Below, in pieces: positions 5,908 to 60,937 of a stretch of DNA of 64,000 nucleotides. Position 1 is the first letter of the stretch; each line of letters begins with the position of its first letter. Under the pieces are notes generated by a model. It saw nothing but the letters and a program-made list of their open reading frames with translations. It did not search any database and was not told the origin of the DNA. The position numbers and the translations under genes are program-made. The stretch covers positions 48,848-112,847 of the forward strand of contig ONPU01000004.1 in assembly GCA_900319795.1 (NCBI GenBank), read 5' to 3'. Source of the stretch: an uncultured Eubacteriales bacterium (GTDB taxonomy: Bacteria > Bacillota > Clostridia > Lachnospirales > Lachnospiraceae).

Positions 5908-7181
5908 TGTTCAAACCTCTCCCTGTCAATCCAAAGTCCCAGAGCGGGATTCGGAATGTAGAAGATTTCCTCGCCGTCCACGGTGTTGTAACCGTAACGG
6001 AGTTTTGAGGGATCATAGCGTTTTACGGTCTCGTCATAAGAGGCGGCCCGGAAGCCGACATGTTCAATTTCTTCAGCCGTAATATTTTTCACAGCATAAG
6101 TAATGTCGAAGCGTCCGTCCGAAGAGCCGTGGATCAGGTGCGCCGCGGCGCCCATATTGGCGCGGAGGTCTTCATTTTCCGCTTTCCGGAACTGTTCCAG
6201 AATCTTCATTCTTCCGCGGTAGCCGTACTTCCGGATCAGCCGGTCGCACTCGCTGTCCTCGCCGAAACGCTCGACGCCGGGTGCCAGAATCACCAGTTCG
6301 CCGCCGTCCGCCATCATCATGCGGGTCCGGTAAATGGCCTTATTGCCGAGCCAGGTGCTCTGAAACTCCGAAGGATCGAGGTAAACCACGCATTTTCGGA
6401 CTCCGTGCTCCACGAAATCGATGTTCTTCTCCTGCGCCGTCTTCACGGCTTCGGTCAGGCATTCCCTGCCCTCTCCGATGAAGAGGCCGTGTGTGCGGAT
6501 CGTCCCGCCGGGCGCCGTCGTTACGGTCAGCACCCACAGAAGCGGCAGGTTTTTTAGAAAATGGTCCGTCCCGTAGTCAAACAGCTTCCGCACCGGCGTG
6601 TGATCCCGCCCCATCATGCGTTCCATGCCGTACACGGCACCGATCATATGGGATTTGTTGATCATCTCGCTTCCGCCCGCGCCGACGAACAGATTTTTCG
6701 CGTGATTGGACATACCAATCACTTCATGGGGCACCACCTGCCCGGGACTGATGATCAGGTCGTATCCGCCTTCCGCGACTCTTCTGTTCAGCTCCACGCT
6801 CACCGCGTCCTTAAAGAGCCCTTCGGTAATCTCCGACACATAGTCCGCCGGCACTTCTCCGAGCGTAATCACATCCCGTCTCCAGTCATGGACAAAAAAG
6901 CGTTCAAACGGAATATCCCCAAACATGCGCTCACACTGTTCCCGCGTCATCGGCGCGTGCGTGCCCAGCGTCGGCATCACATCGACTTCCGCCCCGCGCC
7001 TGGTCAGTTCATGGTAATAGATATTTGTAATAAGCCCCGCATTTGAATGAAATCTCGTAAAGTCCGGCGGAAGAATAAGAGCCTTCCGCACAGACCTCCC
7101 CTCTATGGATTTCAAAAGCGCTCCGCGGATCTCCTCGTCCTTCAGCCCGTTTTCGTCATTTGCCCGGATATACAGTTCCAC
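5904..7181 (-). CDS. LarA-family nickel-dependent racemase/epimerase, possible D-mannonate/D-gluconate 2-epimerase
   Basis: 425 residues, the usual LarA length. It has the N-terminal PPDFTRFHSNAG segment (like the DxTRP motif), LGTHAPMT, ISPGQVVPHEVIGMSNHAKN with a candidate cofactor-bearing Lys, and GAGGSEMINKSHMIG. LarA enzymes use a nickel-pincer nucleotide for hydride transfer at the alpha carbon of 2-hydroxy acids. Lactate is not the obvious substrate here, because both neighbours act on sugar acids. C2 epimerisation of mannonate to gluconate would link the upstream oxidoreductase to 6-phosphogluconate dehydrogenase. The start is GTG at 7181, after GAGGG. The gene lies 31 bases after gnd and overlaps uxaC by 4. 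Family assignment is firm; substrate is inferred. Confidence 0.85.
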   Translation of the reverse strand: MELYIRANDENGLKDEEIRGALLKSIEGRSVRKALILPPDFTRFHSNAGLITNIYYHELTRRGAEVDVMPTLGTHAPMTREQCERMFGDIPFERFFVHDWRRDVITLGEVPADYVSEITEGLFKDAVSVELNRRVAEGGYDLIISPGQVVPHEVIGMSNHAKNLFVGAGGSEMINKSHMIGAVYGMERMMGRDHTPVRKLFDYGTDHFLKNLPLLWVLTVTTAPGGTIRTHGLFIGEGRECLTEAVKTAQEKNIDFVEHGVRKCVVYLDPSEFQSTWLGNKAIYRTRMMMADGGELVILAPGVERFGEDSECDRLIRKYGYRGRMKILEQFRKAENEDLRANMGAAAHLIHGSSDGRFDITYAVKNITAEEIEHVGFRAASYDETVKRYDPSKLRYGYNTVDGEEIFYIPNPALGLWIDRERFEQ

Positions 7182-7212: not shown

Positions 7213-8649
7213 TTACGCGTTGTAAACCGTCGACGCGACGTCCCCGCCGTGCCCGGTCCAGTCGGTATGGAAAAACTCGCCGCGCGGCGCGTCCGTCCTC
7301 TCATACATATGTGCCCCGAAATAATCCCTCTGCGCCTGCAGCAGGTTGGCCGGCAGCCGTTCGCTCGTATAGCCGTCGAACCACTGAAGAGCGGAACTCA
7401 TCGCCGGCATCGGGATGCCCGCCTTCACGGCATAGGCGACGACCTCTCTCCACGAAGAAACAAGTGTTTTCATCACATTGCTGAAGTACTCGTCCTTCAG
7501 AAGATTCGTCAATTCCGGATTCTTCTCATAAGCTTCCTTGATTTTTCCAAGAAATGCGCTCCGGATGATGCATCCGCCTCTCCACATGAGCGCAATGCCG
7601 CCGAAATTGAGGTTCCACTCATGGCTTACCGCCGCGCTTCTCATCAGCATATAGCCCTGTGTATAGGAAATGATCTTGCTCGCAAAAAGCGCTTTGCGGA
7701 CCGCTTCGACAAATGCCTCCCTGTCCCCTTCAAACTCCGGAATCTCCCTCGGGAACAGCTCCGCCGCTTCCACGCGCTCGTCTTTTTGCGCCGACAGGCA
7801 TCTTGCCAGAACCGCTTCGGTAATAAGCGTGAGCGGCACTGCTTCATTCAGGGCTTCGATGCCGGTCCATTTGCCGGTGCCTTTCTGGCCGGCGCGGTCG
7901 AGGATCCGATCCACTTCCGCATTTCCCTGTCCGTCACGGTAAGCCAGAATGTCGGCCGTAATCTGAATGAGATAGCTGTCGAGCTCGGTCTCGTTCCATT
8001 TCCTGAAAACGGCGCTCATCTCGTCGTTTGTCATTTTCAGGCCGTCCCGCATCAGCTGGTACGCTTCGCAGATGAGCTGCATGTCGCCGTACTCGATGCC
8101 GTTGTGTACCATTTTCACAAAATGACCCGCTCCGTTCTCCCCTACCCAGTCGCAGCAGGGTTCATCTCCGTTCACTTTCGCGCAAATCGCCTGAAAGATC
8201 GGTTTCACATACGGCCAGGCTTCCGCCGAGCCGCCCGGCATCATGCTCGGCCCGTGGAGCGCGCCCTCTTCGCCGCCGGACACGCCGCATCCGATGAAAC
8301 GGAGCCCTTTGCTCTCCACATAAGCCGTGCGCCGGATCGTGTCCGGATAGTGGCTGTTGCCGCCATCAATGATGATGTCCCCCTCTTCCAGAACGGGAAT
8401 CAGCTGCTCGATCAGGTCGTCGACCGGCTTCCCGGCCCACACCATCAGAAACACTTTCCTCGGCTTCACCAGATTCTCTCTCAGCTCCTCCGGCGTGCGG
8501 CACGGAACGAAGCCTTCCTCCGCCATCTTTTCCACGCGCTCCGCCGACAGGTCATACACTGCTACGGAAAAGCCCTTCGACTGCATATTTTTCGCGAGAT
8601 TGCTCCCCATCACGCCGAGGCCGATCATCGCAATATCCGCTTTACTCAT
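7213..8649 (-). CDS. gnd: 6-phosphogluconate dehydrogenase, decarboxylating
   Basis: 478 residues from the ATG at 8649, matching the family's 465-480. It oxidises and decarboxylates 6-phosphogluconate to ribulose-5-phosphate. Visible motifs are the Rossmann IGLGVMGSNLAKNM (residues 7-20), DGGNSHYPDT, GVSGGEEGALHGPSMMPGG and the catalytic KMVHNGIEYGDMQLICEAY. The C-terminal region contains AQRDYFGAHMYERTD. An in-frame extension to 8739 would run through a palindromic repeat; the ATG at 8649 with GGAGGGAG before it is the better start. The placing inside a glucuronate operon suggests it drains glucuronate-derived gluconate into the pentose phosphate pathway. Confidence 0.95.
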   Translation of the reverse strand: MSKADIAMIGLGVMGSNLAKNMQSKGFSVAVYDLSAERVEKMAEEGFVPCRTPEELRENLVKPRKVFLMVWAGKPVDDLIEQLIPVLEEGDIIIDGGNSHYPDTIRRTAYVESKGLRFIGCGVSGGEEGALHGPSMMPGGSAEAWPYVKPIFQAICAKVNGDEPCCDWVGENGAGHFVKMVHNGIEYGDMQLICEAYQLMRDGLKMTNDEMSAVFRKWNETELDSYLIQITADILAYRDGQGNAEVDRILDRAGQKGTGKWTGIEALNEAVPLTLITEAVLARCLSAQKDERVEAAELFPREIPEFEGDREAFVEAVRKALFASKIISYTQGYMLMRSAAVSHEWNLNFGGIALMWRGGCIIRSAFLGKIKEAYEKNPELTNLLKDEYFSNVMKTLVSSWREVVAYAVKAGIPMPAMSSALQWFDGYTSERLPANLLQAQRDYFGAHMYERTDAPRGEFFHTDWTGHGGDVASTVYNA

Positions 8650-18697: not shown

Positions 18698-18921
18698 CCG
18701 CCGCCCTTGACAGAACCCGGAAGAGATGCCCGACATCACTATGCCGACGGTGACAGACTCAGGAACAGTATTCGCTCCGCAGGGTCACCGTCGGAACTTC
18801 AGATTGTGTCATCTCTTCCGGAACCCGTCAAGGGTAAACCGCAAGCGGCGGCTTATTTTTTCGCCTCCGGTTCCGCCTCGGAACAGTATAGAACCCCCAG
18901 TGCGCCAATTAACGATTTTTT
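18698..18921 (+). repeat. Left terminal inverted repeat (224 bp) with nested palindrome
   Basis: It matches the reverse complement of 21105-21328 with about ten differences. Inside it, 18704-18728 pairs with 18810-18834 (CCCTTGAC...AGAGATG against CATCTCT...GTCAAGGG), and within that 18743-18754 pairs with 18784-18794 (CCGACGGTGAC / GTCACCGTCGG). The arm could form a large cruciform or RNA hairpin. Confidence 0.85.
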
Positions 18922-19550
18922 CCGAACTGAAGGCCTCATAGAGAGATTGGCTCGGAGTTCTCAACGAAATTTCCCCGAACTGAAGGACTCATAGGCAGAT
19001 TGCTTCGGAGCTTTCATCGAAATTTCTCCGAACTGAAGGACTTATAGAGAAGTTACTTCGGAGCTTTCAGCGAAATTTCTCCGAACTGAAGGACTCATAG
19101 GCAGATTGCTTCGGAGCTTTCAGCGAAATTTCTCCGAACTGAAGGACTTATAGAGAAGTTGCTTCGGAGCTTTCAATGAAATTTCCCCGAACTGAAGGCC
19201 TCATAGAGAGATTGGTTCGGAGCTTTCAGCGAATTTTCCCCGAACTGAAGGACTCATAGGCAGATTGCTTCGGAGCTTTCAGCGAAATTTCTCCGAACTG
19301 AAGGAGTCATAGGCAGATTGCTTCGGAGCTTTCAACGAAATTTCTCCGAACTGGTGGCCTCATAGAGAGATTAGCTCGGAGTTCTCAACGAAATTTCCCC
19401 GAACTGGTGGCCTCATAGAGAGATTGGCTCGGAGTTCTCAACGAAATTTCCCCGAACTGAAAGGCTCATAGAGAGATTGGCTCGGAGTTCTCAACGAAAT
19501 TTCCCCGAACTGAAAGACTCATAGAGAGATTGGTTCGGGGCTTTCAACAC
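18922..19550 (+). repeat. Left array: 12 tandem 53-bp units
   Basis: Units begin with CCGAACTG at 18922, 18975, 19028, 19081, 19134, 19187, 19240, 19293, 19346, 19399, 19452 and 19505, an exact 53-base period. Each unit reads CCGAACTG, a variable 20-25 base part around CTCATAGAGAGATTG, TCGGAG, then TCAACGAAATTT. CCGAA and TTCGG can pair within or between units. The last unit decays after 19545. Confidence 0.92.
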
Positions 19551-19629
19551 TATTGAGTAAATATTGGGACAAAAGGTCTTTCATATTACTTCAGTTCCTG
19601 ATATGATAATTTTAATCCATATGAGTATT

Positions 19630-19657
19630 TGCCTGCAGCACGCAAGTGTTGTAGGCA
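19630..19657 (+). promoter_or_regulatory. Stem-loop in the leader of the element's gene
   Basis: TGCCTGCAGCAC, loop GCAA, GTGTTGTAGGCA: a 12-bp stem (with two G-U pairs as RNA) closed by a GNRA tetraloop, 66 bases before the nuclease start. TATGAT-like sequence lies just upstream (about 19602). It may be an RNA regulatory element or part of a small RNA; no T-run follows directly. Confidence 0.45.
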
Positions 19658-19723
19658 TTTCGCATTTTATGGGGTGCTTTAAAATTGACTATTTTTATAG
19701 CTGCTTTTTGGGGGAATAATGAA

Positions 19724-20521
19724 ATGTTGAGAGAACAATTATTGACAGAGATAAAAAAGATCAATTCGATGCTTTCAAAAATCAAAAAAGATCTTGAGCA
19801 AATCCAGGATTTGGAAGGGACTCTTTGGATTGACAGCAGTCATGGAACACCAGAGTATTATCTTCATAAAGAAGAATATAAACCAAGTAAAAAGAGAAGG
19901 TATATTTCAAAAAAGAACATCGATTTTGTTCAAAAATTGGCGCAGAAGAACTATTTAGACAATGCAGTCAGTGTTCTGGAAGAACAGTACCGGTTACTCA
20001 AGGATTTTTATGGCCGTTATGACGAAAATGCTCTTCTCAACATGACTGCCAATCTCCTTCCGGAGAGAAAGAAATTAATTGATCCTCTTGTTTTGCCAGA
20101 TGAAGAGTATGTGGATATGTGGGTCGGTATACCTTATGAAGGGAAGCCTTTTGAGGAAGGCCTTTCGATGATCCTTACAAACCGAGGAGAACGTGTTCGT
20201 TCAAAGTCCGAAAAGATCATTGCAGATAAGCTGCTGAATGAAGATATTCCCTATCGGTATGAGTGTCCGATCAGGTTGGGGCATACAATTCTTTATCCGG
20301 ATTTTACGGCGCTTAATAAACGTACTCGTAAAGAGTTTTATCTGGAGCACTTGGGCATGATGGATGACCCGAATTATTGTAATGAAACGATATCCAGAAT
20401 TGAACTATATGAAAAGCATGGATTATTTCCGGGCGAGAGCCTTCTGCTAACTTTTGAAACAAAGAATAGGCCATTGGATTCCAGGGTATTGGATATAATT
20501 GTCAGAAAATATCTATTGTAA
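19724..20521 (+). CDS. PD-(D/E)XK-like nuclease, cargo of the repeat element
   Basis: 265 residues from the ATG at 19724, after GGGGG; an in-frame TTG 13 codons earlier is less likely. Residues 1-40 form a coiled-coil-like helix (EIKKINSMLSKIKKDLEQI). The C-terminal half has a nuclease-like order: Glu163 in RSKSEKIIADKLL, Asp193 in ILYPDFTAL, and Glu208 in FYLEHLG, followed by ISRIELYEKHG. The usual Lys of ExK is His here (EH). Function is unrecognised beyond this fold guess. The gene is much more AT-rich than its neighbours, a sign of transfer, and is enclosed by the inverted 53-bp arrays. It may cut repeat DNA or drive mobility. Confidence 0.7.
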   Translation: MLREQLLTEIKKINSMLSKIKKDLEQIQDLEGTLWIDSSHGTPEYYLHKEEYKPSKKRRYISKKNIDFVQKLAQKNYLDNAVSVLEEQYRLLKDFYGRYDENALLNMTANLLPERKKLIDPLVLPDEEYVDMWVGIPYEGKPFEEGLSMILTNRGERVRSKSEKIIADKLLNEDIPYRYECPIRLGHTILYPDFTALNKRTRKEFYLEHLGMMDDPNYCNETISRIELYEKHGLFPGESLLLTFETKNRPLDSRVLDIIVRKYLL

Positions 20522-20532
20522 GGAAAGTAAAC

Positions 20533-21104
20533 TCGAGAGTCCGAAGCAATCTGTCTATGAAGACTTCAGTTCGGGGAAATTTCGTTGAGAACTCCGAAGC
20601 AATCTGTCTATGAGGTCTTCAGTTCGGATGAATTTCGTTAAAAGATCCGAAGCATCTTCTCTATGAGGCCACCAGTTCGGGGAAATTTCGTTGAAAGCTC
20701 CGAAGCAATCTGTCTATGAGACCACCAGTTCGGAGAAATTTCGTTGAAAGCTCCGAACCTGTCTCTCTATGTGGCCTTCAGTTCGGGGATATTTCGTTGA
20801 AAGCTCCGAAGCAAGTTGTCTATGAGGCCACCAGTTCGGGGAAATTTCGTTGAAAGCTCCGAGCCAATCTCTCTATGAGGCCACTAGTTCGGGGAAATTT
20901 CGTTGAGAACTCCGAGCCAATCTCTCTATGAGGCCACCAGTTCGGGGAAATTTCGTTGAAAGCTCCGAACCTATCTCTCTATGAGGCCACCAGTTCGGAT
21001 GAATTTCGTTAAAAGCTCCGAAGCAACTTCTCTATGAGGCCACCAATTCGGGGAAATTTCGTTGAAAGCTCCGAACCTATCTCTCTATGGAGCCTTCAGT
21101 TCGG
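20533..21104 (-). repeat. Right array: 11 tandem 53-bp units in inverse orientation
   Basis: The conserved CAGTTCGG (reverse complement of CCGAACTG; two units have one change) starts at 20567, 20620, 20673, 20726, 20779, 20832, 20885, 20938, 20991, 21044 and 21097, again exactly 53 apart. The unit nearest the gene is truncated. Units are interchangeable with the left array when reversed. Confidence 0.92.
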
Positions 21105-21328
21105 AAAAAATCGTTAATTGGTGCACTGGGGTTTTCTGTACTGTTCCGAGGTGGAACCGGAGGCAAAAAGTAAGCCGCCGCTTGCGGTTTACCCTTGACG
21201 GGTTCCGGAAGAGATGACAAAATCTGAAGTTCCGACGGTGACCCTGCGGAGCGAATACTGTTCCTGAGTCTGTCACCGTCGGCATATGCGTGTCGGGCAT
21301 CTCTTCCGGGTTCTGTCAAGGGCGGCGG
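21105..21328 (-). repeat. Right terminal inverted repeat (224 bp)
   Basis: The mirror copy of 18698-18921, of equal length. Two compensating single-base indels and a few substitutions distinguish the two. It carries the same nested palindromes. The outer end GGCGGCGG stops at 21328, where similarity with the left flank ends. Confidence 0.85.
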
Positions 21329-27917: not shown

Positions 27918-27982
27918 TGCACCACCGGGGTCAGGCACCTTTGGTGCAAACTGCACCACAGGGGCCTGGCACCTGTGGTGCA
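27918..27982. repeat. Double TGCACCA/TGGTGCA palindrome
   Basis: Two adjacent 31-bp inverted repeats (27918-27948 and 27952-27982). Each has TGCACCA at the left end, TGGTGCA at the right end, and a GGGGxCxGGCACC core. This is a second REP-like family, distinct from the GGGGACAGTCCC one but alike in design. Confidence 0.75.
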
Positions 27983-58016: not shown

Positions 58017-58259
58017 AGGATCCCCTCCGGTCTTTTTAACTGTGCTAAGCTTGCCACTATGAGACACATTCTATTACCAAAACGGAACAGTGTGTCTATT
58101 TCTTATACTTTTCTCTGTGTAAATATTACCATCGAAATCGTTTTCCAAACAGTCAGATTTAGCGTTTTTCATAAAAACGGCGATTTCAACAGTTTGCCGC
58201 GGTTCTTTTTGTCACTAATTCACAGTGGGTTCCTTTTTTGCGACTTCTGTGTGACTTTT

Positions 58260-58319
58260 AAGACAGTGGGGACAGTCCCTGGTGTCTTATAAGACACCAG
58301 GGACTGTCCCCACTGTCTT
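58260..58319. repeat. GGGGACAGTCCC palindrome, perfect 60-bp copy
   Basis: Two 30-base arms (AAGACAGTGGGGACAGTCCC, TGGTGTCTTA and their exact complement). The stop codon of the XRE gene at 58287-58289 lies at its centre. Confidence 0.92.
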
Positions 58320-58967
58320 ATCCGGAAGGTACTCCATCAAATCCTCCGGTGAGCAGTGCAAGACAGACGTGAGGGACAGAATTGTCTCCAGCTGAGCTTT
58401 GTTGATGTTCTTGCGGCGTTGCTCATAGTTTTGGATCATTCTAACTGAACAGCCGCTGGCAGCAGCCAATTCATTTTGGCTCATCTGCAGGCGGTCCCGA
58501 TACATTTTCAGACGTGTGACCCGGGATCTTTTTACTATTAGCTCATCTGCATGATCTGCAAATTGAAGAGGATCCATTTCGTGGAAGGGATGGTACATTT
58601 TCAAAATCTCATCCGGCTTGAGATTCTCATGAATCCTCTCAAATGTCAGTCCTGAATACCATTGATAAAATGCCAGAATCCACCCGGTCCAATATTCCGG
58701 GCTCTTTTCCAGATGAAAGACCGGATCCGGATGCGTCATCCCATTCCCCGTGAGTCTCAGAACCTCAAATGCCAGCTCAATACCGGACATCCCGCTTAAG
58801 TAACGGAAATCACCGTGACCGAACATGCGCGCAATGCCGGACTGAAGGAACAGTTCGTGAAATTCATTTATCTGCATACTGCAGTTCTCAGTGCCATAGC
58901 GGAACATGGTTGCCAGATTTTCCTGTGCACAGCCGAGGTAAATTTCATTGTAAGCGCGGGTCGCCAT
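58287..58967 (-). CDS. XRE-family regulator, likely antitoxin partner of the ADP-ribosyltransferase-like gene
   Basis: 226 residues, ATG at 58967 with GGAGG 9 bases before it. The N-terminal 130 residues are an unrecognised helical domain (LATMFRYGTENCSMQINEF, PEYWTGWILAFYQWYSGLTF). The C-terminal XRE domain is LQMSQNELAAASGCSVRMIQ followed by NYEQRRKNINKAQLETILSL. The last residues, KTVGTVPGVL, are encoded by half of a palindromic repeat, whose TAA ends the gene; the original end was probably replaced. It overlaps the upstream DUF3990-like gene by 23 bases, so the two are coupled. Confidence 0.8.
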   Translation of the reverse strand: MATRAYNEIYLGCAQENLATMFRYGTENCSMQINEFHELFLQSGIARMFGHGDFRYLSGMSGIELAFEVLRLTGNGMTHPDPVFHLEKSPEYWTGWILAFYQWYSGLTFERIHENLKPDEILKMYHPFHEMDPLQFADHADELIVKRSRVTRLKMYRDRLQMSQNELAAASGCSVRMIQNYEQRRKNINKAQLETILSLTSVLHCSPEDLMEYLPDKTVGTVPGVL

Positions 58968-60845: not shown

Positions 60846-60854
60846 ATGCCAGAT

Positions 60855-60914
60855 AAGACAGTGGGGACTGTCCCCAGTGTCTTATAAGACAGCAGGGACT
60901 GTCCCCACTGTCTT
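60855..60914. repeat. GGGGACAGTCCC palindrome, 60-bp copy after the flavin reductase gene
   Basis: The arms have a few mismatches (AAGACAGTGGGGACTGTCCC on the left, CAGCAGGGACTGTCC on the right). It begins 9 bases past the stop codon and ends 23 bases before the next start, where it could stop transcription in either direction. Confidence 0.9.
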
Positions 60915-60937
60915 ACATCACTCAAAGGAGGCCTGCT

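Follow-up and report, generated by a model that had tools for sequence, protein, structure and literature searches.

The window analysed here (64,000 nucleotides of contig ONPU01000004.1, from an uncultured bacterium of the Lachnospiraceae) contains, at 18698-21328, an element in which inverted terminal repeats enclose two inverted tandem arrays and a central gene for a 265-aa nuclease-like protein. Comparison with homologous loci suggests, at a probability that we would put near 0.6, that this locus is a member of a widespread two-part system, present in many gut bacteria, in which a sequence-specific PD-(D/E)XK-type nuclease is paired with dyads of its own in a helically phased array. At the sequence level, the comparison established that gene and array are associated, that array periods fall on whole helical turns, that the units contain dyads with conserved arms, and that the arms covary with the protein; paralogues within one genome were found to have different arms, and matching arrays were found in trans. 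An initial annotation, made from the letters of the window alone, had described the element as a mirror-symmetric inherited unit; what it observed was confirmed, and what it made of the observation was partly supported.

Relatives of the nuclease were sought in the family, genus and class of the host. In the family, 98 of 299 genomes had a match (up to seven matches in one genome), as did 19 of 42 in the genus (several of them weak and in long frames) and, at E<=1e-15, 35 of 391 in the class; the window's own incomplete genome (2.0 Mb, 82% complete, 23 contigs) has one. Named relatives include Roseburia, Blautia, Mediterraneibacter, Eisenbergiella, Anaerostipes and Butyrivibrio. An early scan of genome contigs with the window protein gave no match. 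pth, the neighbour gene of the nuclease, matched in 38 of 42 genomes, and 30 pth loci were retrieved. The sample of loci comprised 174 (169 distinct): 30 from the family scan and 40 more hand-picked from its list, 24 from the genus, and the best 80 of 367 stretches encoding a relative in a wider search. Among the 164 distinct loci with at least 150 bp of upstream sequence, 130 carried a tandem array within 1 kb upstream of the nuclease gene, consistent with the initial proposal that nuclease and arrays belong together, while control stretches 2-3 kb away contained a tandem repeat in 11 of 182 cases, with periods of 25-48 bp and one of 111 bp, none in the whole-turn classes. In the class-wide set, 17 of the 28 loci with enough flank had an upstream array, some of these loci repeating earlier ones. 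Some homologue loci, such as L009, L011, L025, L027 and L028, are at most a few hundred bases from the end of their contig. Arrays perhaps break assemblies, and the true number of arrays may therefore be higher than counted.

The periods of the upstream arrays clustered at 51-55 bp (79 loci), 62-64 bp (23), 70-75 bp (16) and 82-85 bp (3), with 106-126 bp in four further loci and 26-41 bp in five; none of the 130 arrays had a period of 56-61, 65-69 or 76-81 bp. Judged by these lengths, array periods fall on whole helical turns, namely 5, 6, 7 or 8. Phase concentration at 10.5 bp was R=0.824 across all 130 arrays and R=0.673 (p about 9e-11; p values ignore the relatedness of loci) once those of 50-56 bp were set aside, which leaves 51. 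The turn class changed at least 24 times on a FastTree tree of 123 nucleases, and the unit sequences of distant loci look unrelated. Unit sequence thus turns over while spacing stays at whole turns, a requirement that an RNA would not have. Separate 34-40 bp tandem repeats, outside the whole-turn classes, were noticed downstream of the gene in L008, L010, L080 and L092.

Unit consensuses contained inverted arms, with a mean of 7.55 of 9 matches compared with 6.30 for shuffled sequences. Among the 85 arrays with at least three units, conservation was highest in the arms (0.929, versus 0.842 for the loop and 0.846 for the linker), which stood above the loop in 72 arrays and above the linker in 72. 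Arm similarity rose with protein identity, from 4.29 through 4.45, 4.66, 5.68 and 6.70 to 8.50 of 9 across six identity bins (367, 678, 212, 167, 47 and 10 pairs, respectively), whereas a loop/linker control was flat at 5.08-5.47 up to 75% identity. The control is probably inflated at low identity because it is A-rich, and only its flat trend was therefore used. Relatives in Mediterraneibacter and Blautia, for example, have TACGGTT..AACCGTA in common, with linkers changed. Between paralogues within one genome, arm similarity was 4.86 (21 pairs, all those with arrays among the paralogue loci fetched; L023/L080 reached 7/9), compared with 4.74 for random pairs. A single host DNA-binding protein as reader of all arrays is disfavoured, since paralogue arms are no more alike than random ones, and the nuclease is the linked candidate. 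Double Watson-Crick changes in the arms showed no compensatory excess (2 versus 3.3 by shuffling, 39 arrays); such uncompensated change speaks against recognition of RNA or of a single-strand hairpin. From these patterns we infer that the nuclease itself binds the dyads, and sequence-specific action on the repeats would be the best account of its role; the initial annotation had suggested action in cis on the repeats or the termini.

No Pfam family fitted the window protein, which gave only weak matches under the cut-offs; across 58 homologues no family matched more than one, and neither a HuH nor a transposase family was among the Pfam matches of these 58. PHROGs returned weak resolvase or endonuclease matches for some homologues. 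The residues S160, K161, E163, D193, F194, E208, H209, G211, Y218 and E245 were invariant in 70 of 70 aligned homologues, and the motifs that most of them form (S160-K161-x-E163, D193-F194 and E208-H209-x-G211) are arranged as in a PD-(D/E)XK-type active site that includes a histidine, such as that of Vsr-like enzymes. An AlphaFold2 model of the protein was confident (mean pLDDT 96.3, pTM 0.80). Foldseek found no match in the PDB at E<=1e-3 and four in a viral library, the top one a Bacillus phage protein named homing endonuclease (E 2.6e-4, TM 0.31, root-mean-square deviation 22.7); in the model, likeness to that fold is local at best. Searching PDB sequences with a profile brought no convincing match, the best hit being an R2 retrotransposon protein (E 0.084).

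Related arrays also occur away from any nuclease gene. The window's genome contains three nuclease-free arrays between genes (Table 1), and a scan with TRF of 505,941 bases of that genome, 392,940 of them a fresh sample, revealed no further 53-bp dyad array. A search of the same genome with the pattern TCCGNAN{20,28}TNCGGA was discarded as uninformative (206 matches per strand versus 11 for the reversed pattern), the core letters seeming to be common. Genome G316 has 64-bp arrays at a distance of some 100-200 bp from three palindrome sites, and the unit of these arrays is 74-77% identical to the array of that genome's nuclease. Together, 13 genomes that carry the nuclease type belonging to the dyad TACGGTY-N20-26-RACCGTA had 112 exact copies of it, gene-side ones included, with 0 to 26 per genome and at least one in 12 of 13; the controls gave 2 for the reversed pattern in the 13 genomes and 2 over seven genomes without the type. 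Among the matches listed, solo dyad sites were present in 4 of the 13 genomes (G740, G742, G747 and G754); in G743, G744, G745 and G749 dyads were counted, their positions falling outside the matches listed. A sample of 15 solo sites from the four genomes, five of them single dyads, was analysed. All but one (14/15) were clear of open reading frames (ORFs) of 90 aa or more, and dyad-to-dyad steps were 52 or 53 bp in 19 of 21 cases (the others being 106 and 164 bp). Searches by tblastn with five nucleases detected no remnant at 14 of the 15 sites and one 32-residue match (E 0.003) at the other. Neighbouring genes were convergent at five sites, co-directional at seven (one by an ORF overlapping the dyad), divergent at one and unassigned at two.

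These data are consistent with a mechanism in which a nuclease dimer would bind a single dyad of duplex DNA, each subunit contacting one half-site. According to a review, the EDxHD homing endonuclease I-Bth0305I dimerizes on a target of nearly 60 bp (PMC3943268), so one dimer per 53-bp unit is plausible. With units every 5, 6, 7 or 8 helical turns, successive dimers would lie on one face and might assemble cooperatively. Binding beside the gene would hold the enzyme down and probably repress the nuclease gene, and intergenic solo dyads and arrays that have similar half-sites would be recognized by the same enzyme. If such sites were now and then cut and repaired from another array, units might expand, homogenize and spread. 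In its working, such a system would resemble a REPtron (a TnpA-REP transposase with its repetitive extragenic palindromic (REP) sequences or bacterial interspersed mosaic elements (BIMEs)), with an unrelated enzyme and on duplex DNA.

A number of results weigh against this reading. No array was detected at the threshold used in 34 of the 164 loci, a level that falls short of the regular absence named by the initial annotation as refuting it, nor in 11 of the 28 class-wide loci (7 of these 11 among the more distant homologues, from L156 on). Periods of 26-41 bp (five loci) and 70-71 bp (four loci) do not fit whole turns, the class-wide set added off-class periods of 29, 61 and 65 bp, and phasing is weaker in downstream arrays (R=0.355, n=36). 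Of the 123 unit consensuses, no more than 55 had a dyad at p<=0.05 against shuffles. At protein identities under 55% the loop/linker control is more alike than the arms, and the bin of highest identity holds only 10 pairs, with the control also up, at 7.60. Pairing-breaking double changes in the arms exceeded shuffles (13 versus 5.0), and the fold matches of the nuclease model are weak. Among the genomes searched for exact dyads, G746, G750 and G752 had listed dyads on the gene side only, G741 had none, and in G748 the dyad array lies at a contig end. Arm conservation at the solo sites is not independent because the search demanded exact arms, and the independent evidence there consists of the spacing, the counts relative to controls and the intergenic setting. 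Finally, free cutting of its own sites would destroy the locus, so cutting would have to be rare or conditional.

The layout of the element in the window is given in Table 1. The initial annotation had reported 12 and 11 exact units of 53 bp; the counts and the period held, and the units proved to be only 84-88% alike. Array scores were 425 and 332, compared with a maximum of 11 in 20 shuffles each, and the two arrays are 83% complementary to each other across 595 nt. The left array has 12 dyads, and the right has 10 by a strict pattern and an eleventh with a changed arm base. A CRISPR-like array was rejected, as loops and linkers recur from unit to unit and there are no unique spacers. The gene is AT-rich, as had been noted (GC 0.381 versus 0.532 for the window), and an alternative TTG start at 19685 would give a longer protein. 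By eye, no transposase, integrase, reverse transcriptase or Cas gene was apparent among the ORFs listed inside the element, in agreement with the initial annotation. Elsewhere in the window, other short palindromic repeats of 31-34 bp occur at 27918-27982, 58251-58321 and 60853-60915, and also in L343, L361, L362 and L053; with cores such as GGGACAGTCCCC or GGGGTCTGGCACC, they recur in the window's genome and look like a separate REP-type family.

Table 1. The element in the window and nuclease-free arrays elsewhere in its genome. Positions are those of the window (contig coordinates minus 48847), except for the last three rows, which refer to contigs C10 and C12 of the same genome.
Feature	Position	Strand	Description
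Left terminal inverted repeat	18698..18916	+	219 nt; imperfect palindrome of about 131 bp inside
Upstream array	18922..19548	+	12 units of 53 bp (11.8 copies, 88% match); dyad CCGAAC-N24-TCGG per unit
Spacer, array to start codon	19549..19723	+	175 bp; putative promoter and leader of nuclease gene
Nuclease-like gene	19724..20521	+	265 aa; helical N-terminal part and predicted C-terminal PD-(D/E)XK-type domain
Downstream array	20540..21104	-	11 units of 53 bp (10.7 copies, 84% match), inverted orientation, half-sites as in upstream array
Right terminal inverted repeat	21110..21328	-	219 nt, 95% identical to left one; imperfect palindrome of about 131 bp inside
Nuclease-free array	C12:46722-47091		6.7 copies; related to window's arrays, without gene or terminal repeats
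Nuclease-free array	C10:29435-29725		5.3 copies; related to window's arrays, without gene or terminal repeats
Nuclease-free array	C12:28786-29252		8.8 copies; inside window-type terminal repeats, unit only partly similar (by eye)

The mirror symmetry that the initial annotation had taken as the essence of the element was not general. Homologues regularly have upstream arrays; downstream arrays were present in only 36 of 168 loci. Up- and downstream flanks were alike in 14 of 94 loci (8 direct only, 4 inverted only, 2 both). The terminal repeats are indeed present and inverted, at 219 bp and 95% identity instead of the equal 224 bp first reported, and they form a separate repeat family without a general link to the nuclease locus, contrary to their inclusion in a single unit. 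Of 61 genomes, three had a match to them; one of the three is the window's own genome, where they form two inverted pairs, the second bounding a nuclease-free element (G000:C12:28572-29446). In the 24 other in-genus nuclease loci they were absent apart from one 22-nt match. By eye, that nuclease-free element itself sits inside another inverted repeat, AACAGACATAAATGTCTGTTCAGACTG, which adds a third layer of mirror symmetry (L051, about 6490-6540 and 7488-7545). Comparison of the loci thus indicates that the mirror plan is a local elaboration and that the general unit is nuclease plus array. From the window alone it could not have been seen that the 53-bp period belongs to a series of whole-turn periods, or that there are also arrays in trans.

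Other loci bear on how the unit may have been copied or rearranged. In several close orthologues one flank is in common and the other different, which fits rearrangement of the locus at least as well as free transposition. In L187 and L189 a second array downstream of the gene looks, by eye, like a copy of the upstream array with leader and tail, which fits copying of the array as one unit. L187 also has, about 319-520 bases past the nuclease stop codon and before the second array, what by eye may be a broken N-terminal piece of another gene. The nuclease of L197 (Mediterraneibacter catenae) has only about 170 bp of upstream DNA in common with its relatives, and the end of a contig elsewhere in that genome carries a matching leader and array, as if a rearrangement had broken inside the array.

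The wrapper and the content of the element could have separate origins. The terminal repeats may be derived from a miniature inverted-repeat transposable element (MITE) or an insertion sequence and enclose array and nuclease by chance, a tentative possibility that is compatible with the two-part system. The outer palindrome of the terminal repeat occurs seven times in G316 and once in G332, there ending 13 nt from an ORF with integrase-core (rve) domains, and window-type terminal repeats enclose a nuclease-free array as well; however, in G316 and at both places in the window's genome the repeats lie near or around arrays, and chance is not obvious. A selfish element of homing or transposition type, in which repair of a target cut by the nuclease would copy in the array-nuclease block and the terminal repeats would mark a mobile copy, we consider doubtful. 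It would account for the gene having, in 106 of 113 loci, a lower GC than its flanks at 1-3 kb, for the copy number within genomes, for the terminal repeats occurring as two pairs around arrays and, TM of 0.31 notwithstanding, for the name of the best viral fold match. Homing by insertion destroys the site, however, and here many cognate-type sites are intact beside the gene; one or both flanks are common to several close orthologues, and no target-site duplication was seen by eye at either terminal-repeat pair. An unannotated 4.2-kb phage record that matches 88% of the protein (31% identity, E 3e-28) favours the selfish element, whereas the other two of the three matching phage records cover the C-terminal half only and viral contigs yielded no relatives by the sequence patterns used. 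The nuclease as phage cargo was rejected, as was plasmid cargo: all eight matching plasmid records do so via residues 136-264 (six annotated AAA ATPase, one RecD-like, one unannotated).

The arrays might instead be multi-site operators through which a repressor-like nuclease controls its own gene, with nuclease-free arrays as relics of lost copies that have no function in trans. Arrays end at a median of 110 bp before the start codon, within 40 bp in 23 of 130 loci, and the second arrays of L187 and L189 also fit this proposal. It is nevertheless unlikely, given that solo arrays keep their 52-53 bp spacing despite changed loops and linkers, that nuclease remnants are missing from nearly all solo sites, and that 10-15 sites are more than an operator needs. 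Type III toxin-antitoxin modules have a tandem repeat array directly upstream of a nuclease gene, as here, and by analogy the array could be transcribed into repeat RNAs that restrain the nuclease. Those modules combine an RNA antitoxin with the ToxN fold, whereas the present system has DNA-level phasing and another fold. Whole-turn periods across unrelated sequences, the lack of compensatory excess in the arms and the arrays far from any nuclease gene make such an RNA system very improbable; nor did any Rfam match reach the gathering score.

We compared the proposed two-part system with known ones. REPtrons (TnpA-REP/RAYT with REP/BIME/REPIN) come closest in logic: in the excerpted accounts, TnpA-REP genes lie, mostly as single copies, beside REPs (PMC8266576), and the gene is accompanied by cognate palindromic repeats with inverted arms, which are mostly dispersed in intergenic DNA, often also in tandem, and co-evolve with the enzyme (PMC8266576; PMC3116915). 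Here too, dyad-bearing repeats lie beside the gene and are dispersed between genes (in the window's genome, G316 and four of 13 further genomes). In contrast, the conserved residues are of the PD-(D/E)XK type and not HuH/Y1, units are about 53-85 bp with whole-turn periods, and the evidence points to duplex DNA; exact dyads number at most 26 per genome, not hundreds or thousands, and several paralogues with different half-sites can coexist in one genome. EDxHD homing endonucleases have a restriction-type active site, the target of I-Bth0305I is close in length to the 53-bp unit, and the best viral fold match is named as a homing endonuclease. The excerpt of PMC3943268 mentions no tandem phased or dispersed sites for them. 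The EDxHD-type residues E163, D193 and E208-H209 are present in the window nuclease, with weak fold matches, and its 12 + 11 dyads are intact and not disrupted by insertion, if the dyad is the target. BrickBuilt, a MITE of Porphyromonas gingivalis, is intergenic, its ends are inverted repeats and its leader and tail enclose a tandem array, and in this it resembles the nuclease-free element; it differs in its 23-bp unit and lack of a nuclease, phasing going unmentioned in the excerpt (PMC4596501). The terminal repeats, like those of a MITE, occur in multiple copies, and by this analogy the mirror plan is perhaps a MITE-like wrapper. The PADLOC defence candidate PDC-S68 matches residues 139-262 of the window protein at positions 1090-1217 of its 1221-position model (E 6.4e-25); that model describes a long protein, whereas the window protein has 265 aa and another N-terminal part.

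Searches of open-licence papers yielded no description of a nuclease with a phased array, nor, as the initial annotation had anticipated, a named element of this design. On balance, with the chances evenly divided, the Clostridia may harbour an undescribed genome-resident system, in which nucleases without a Pfam family would each read a private dyad code in whole-turn arrays, beside their genes and dispersed; they would assemble cooperatively on one face and propagate or police the arrays, as a duplex-DNA counterpart of REPtrons. We can name no known kind of system to which this enzyme family or this array geometry belongs; a stricter reader could see a variation on the REPtron idea. If this is true, more than 100 of the genomes searched would hold nucleases whose DNA-recognition code is readable from the genome, since copies of the site lie next to each gene, and together they would form a natural collection of proteins matched to their targets. 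With the whole-turn periods, genome sequence alone would, unusually, record binding to one face of DNA, and the system would provide a second, unrelated answer to the origin of dispersed palindromic repeats in bacteria.

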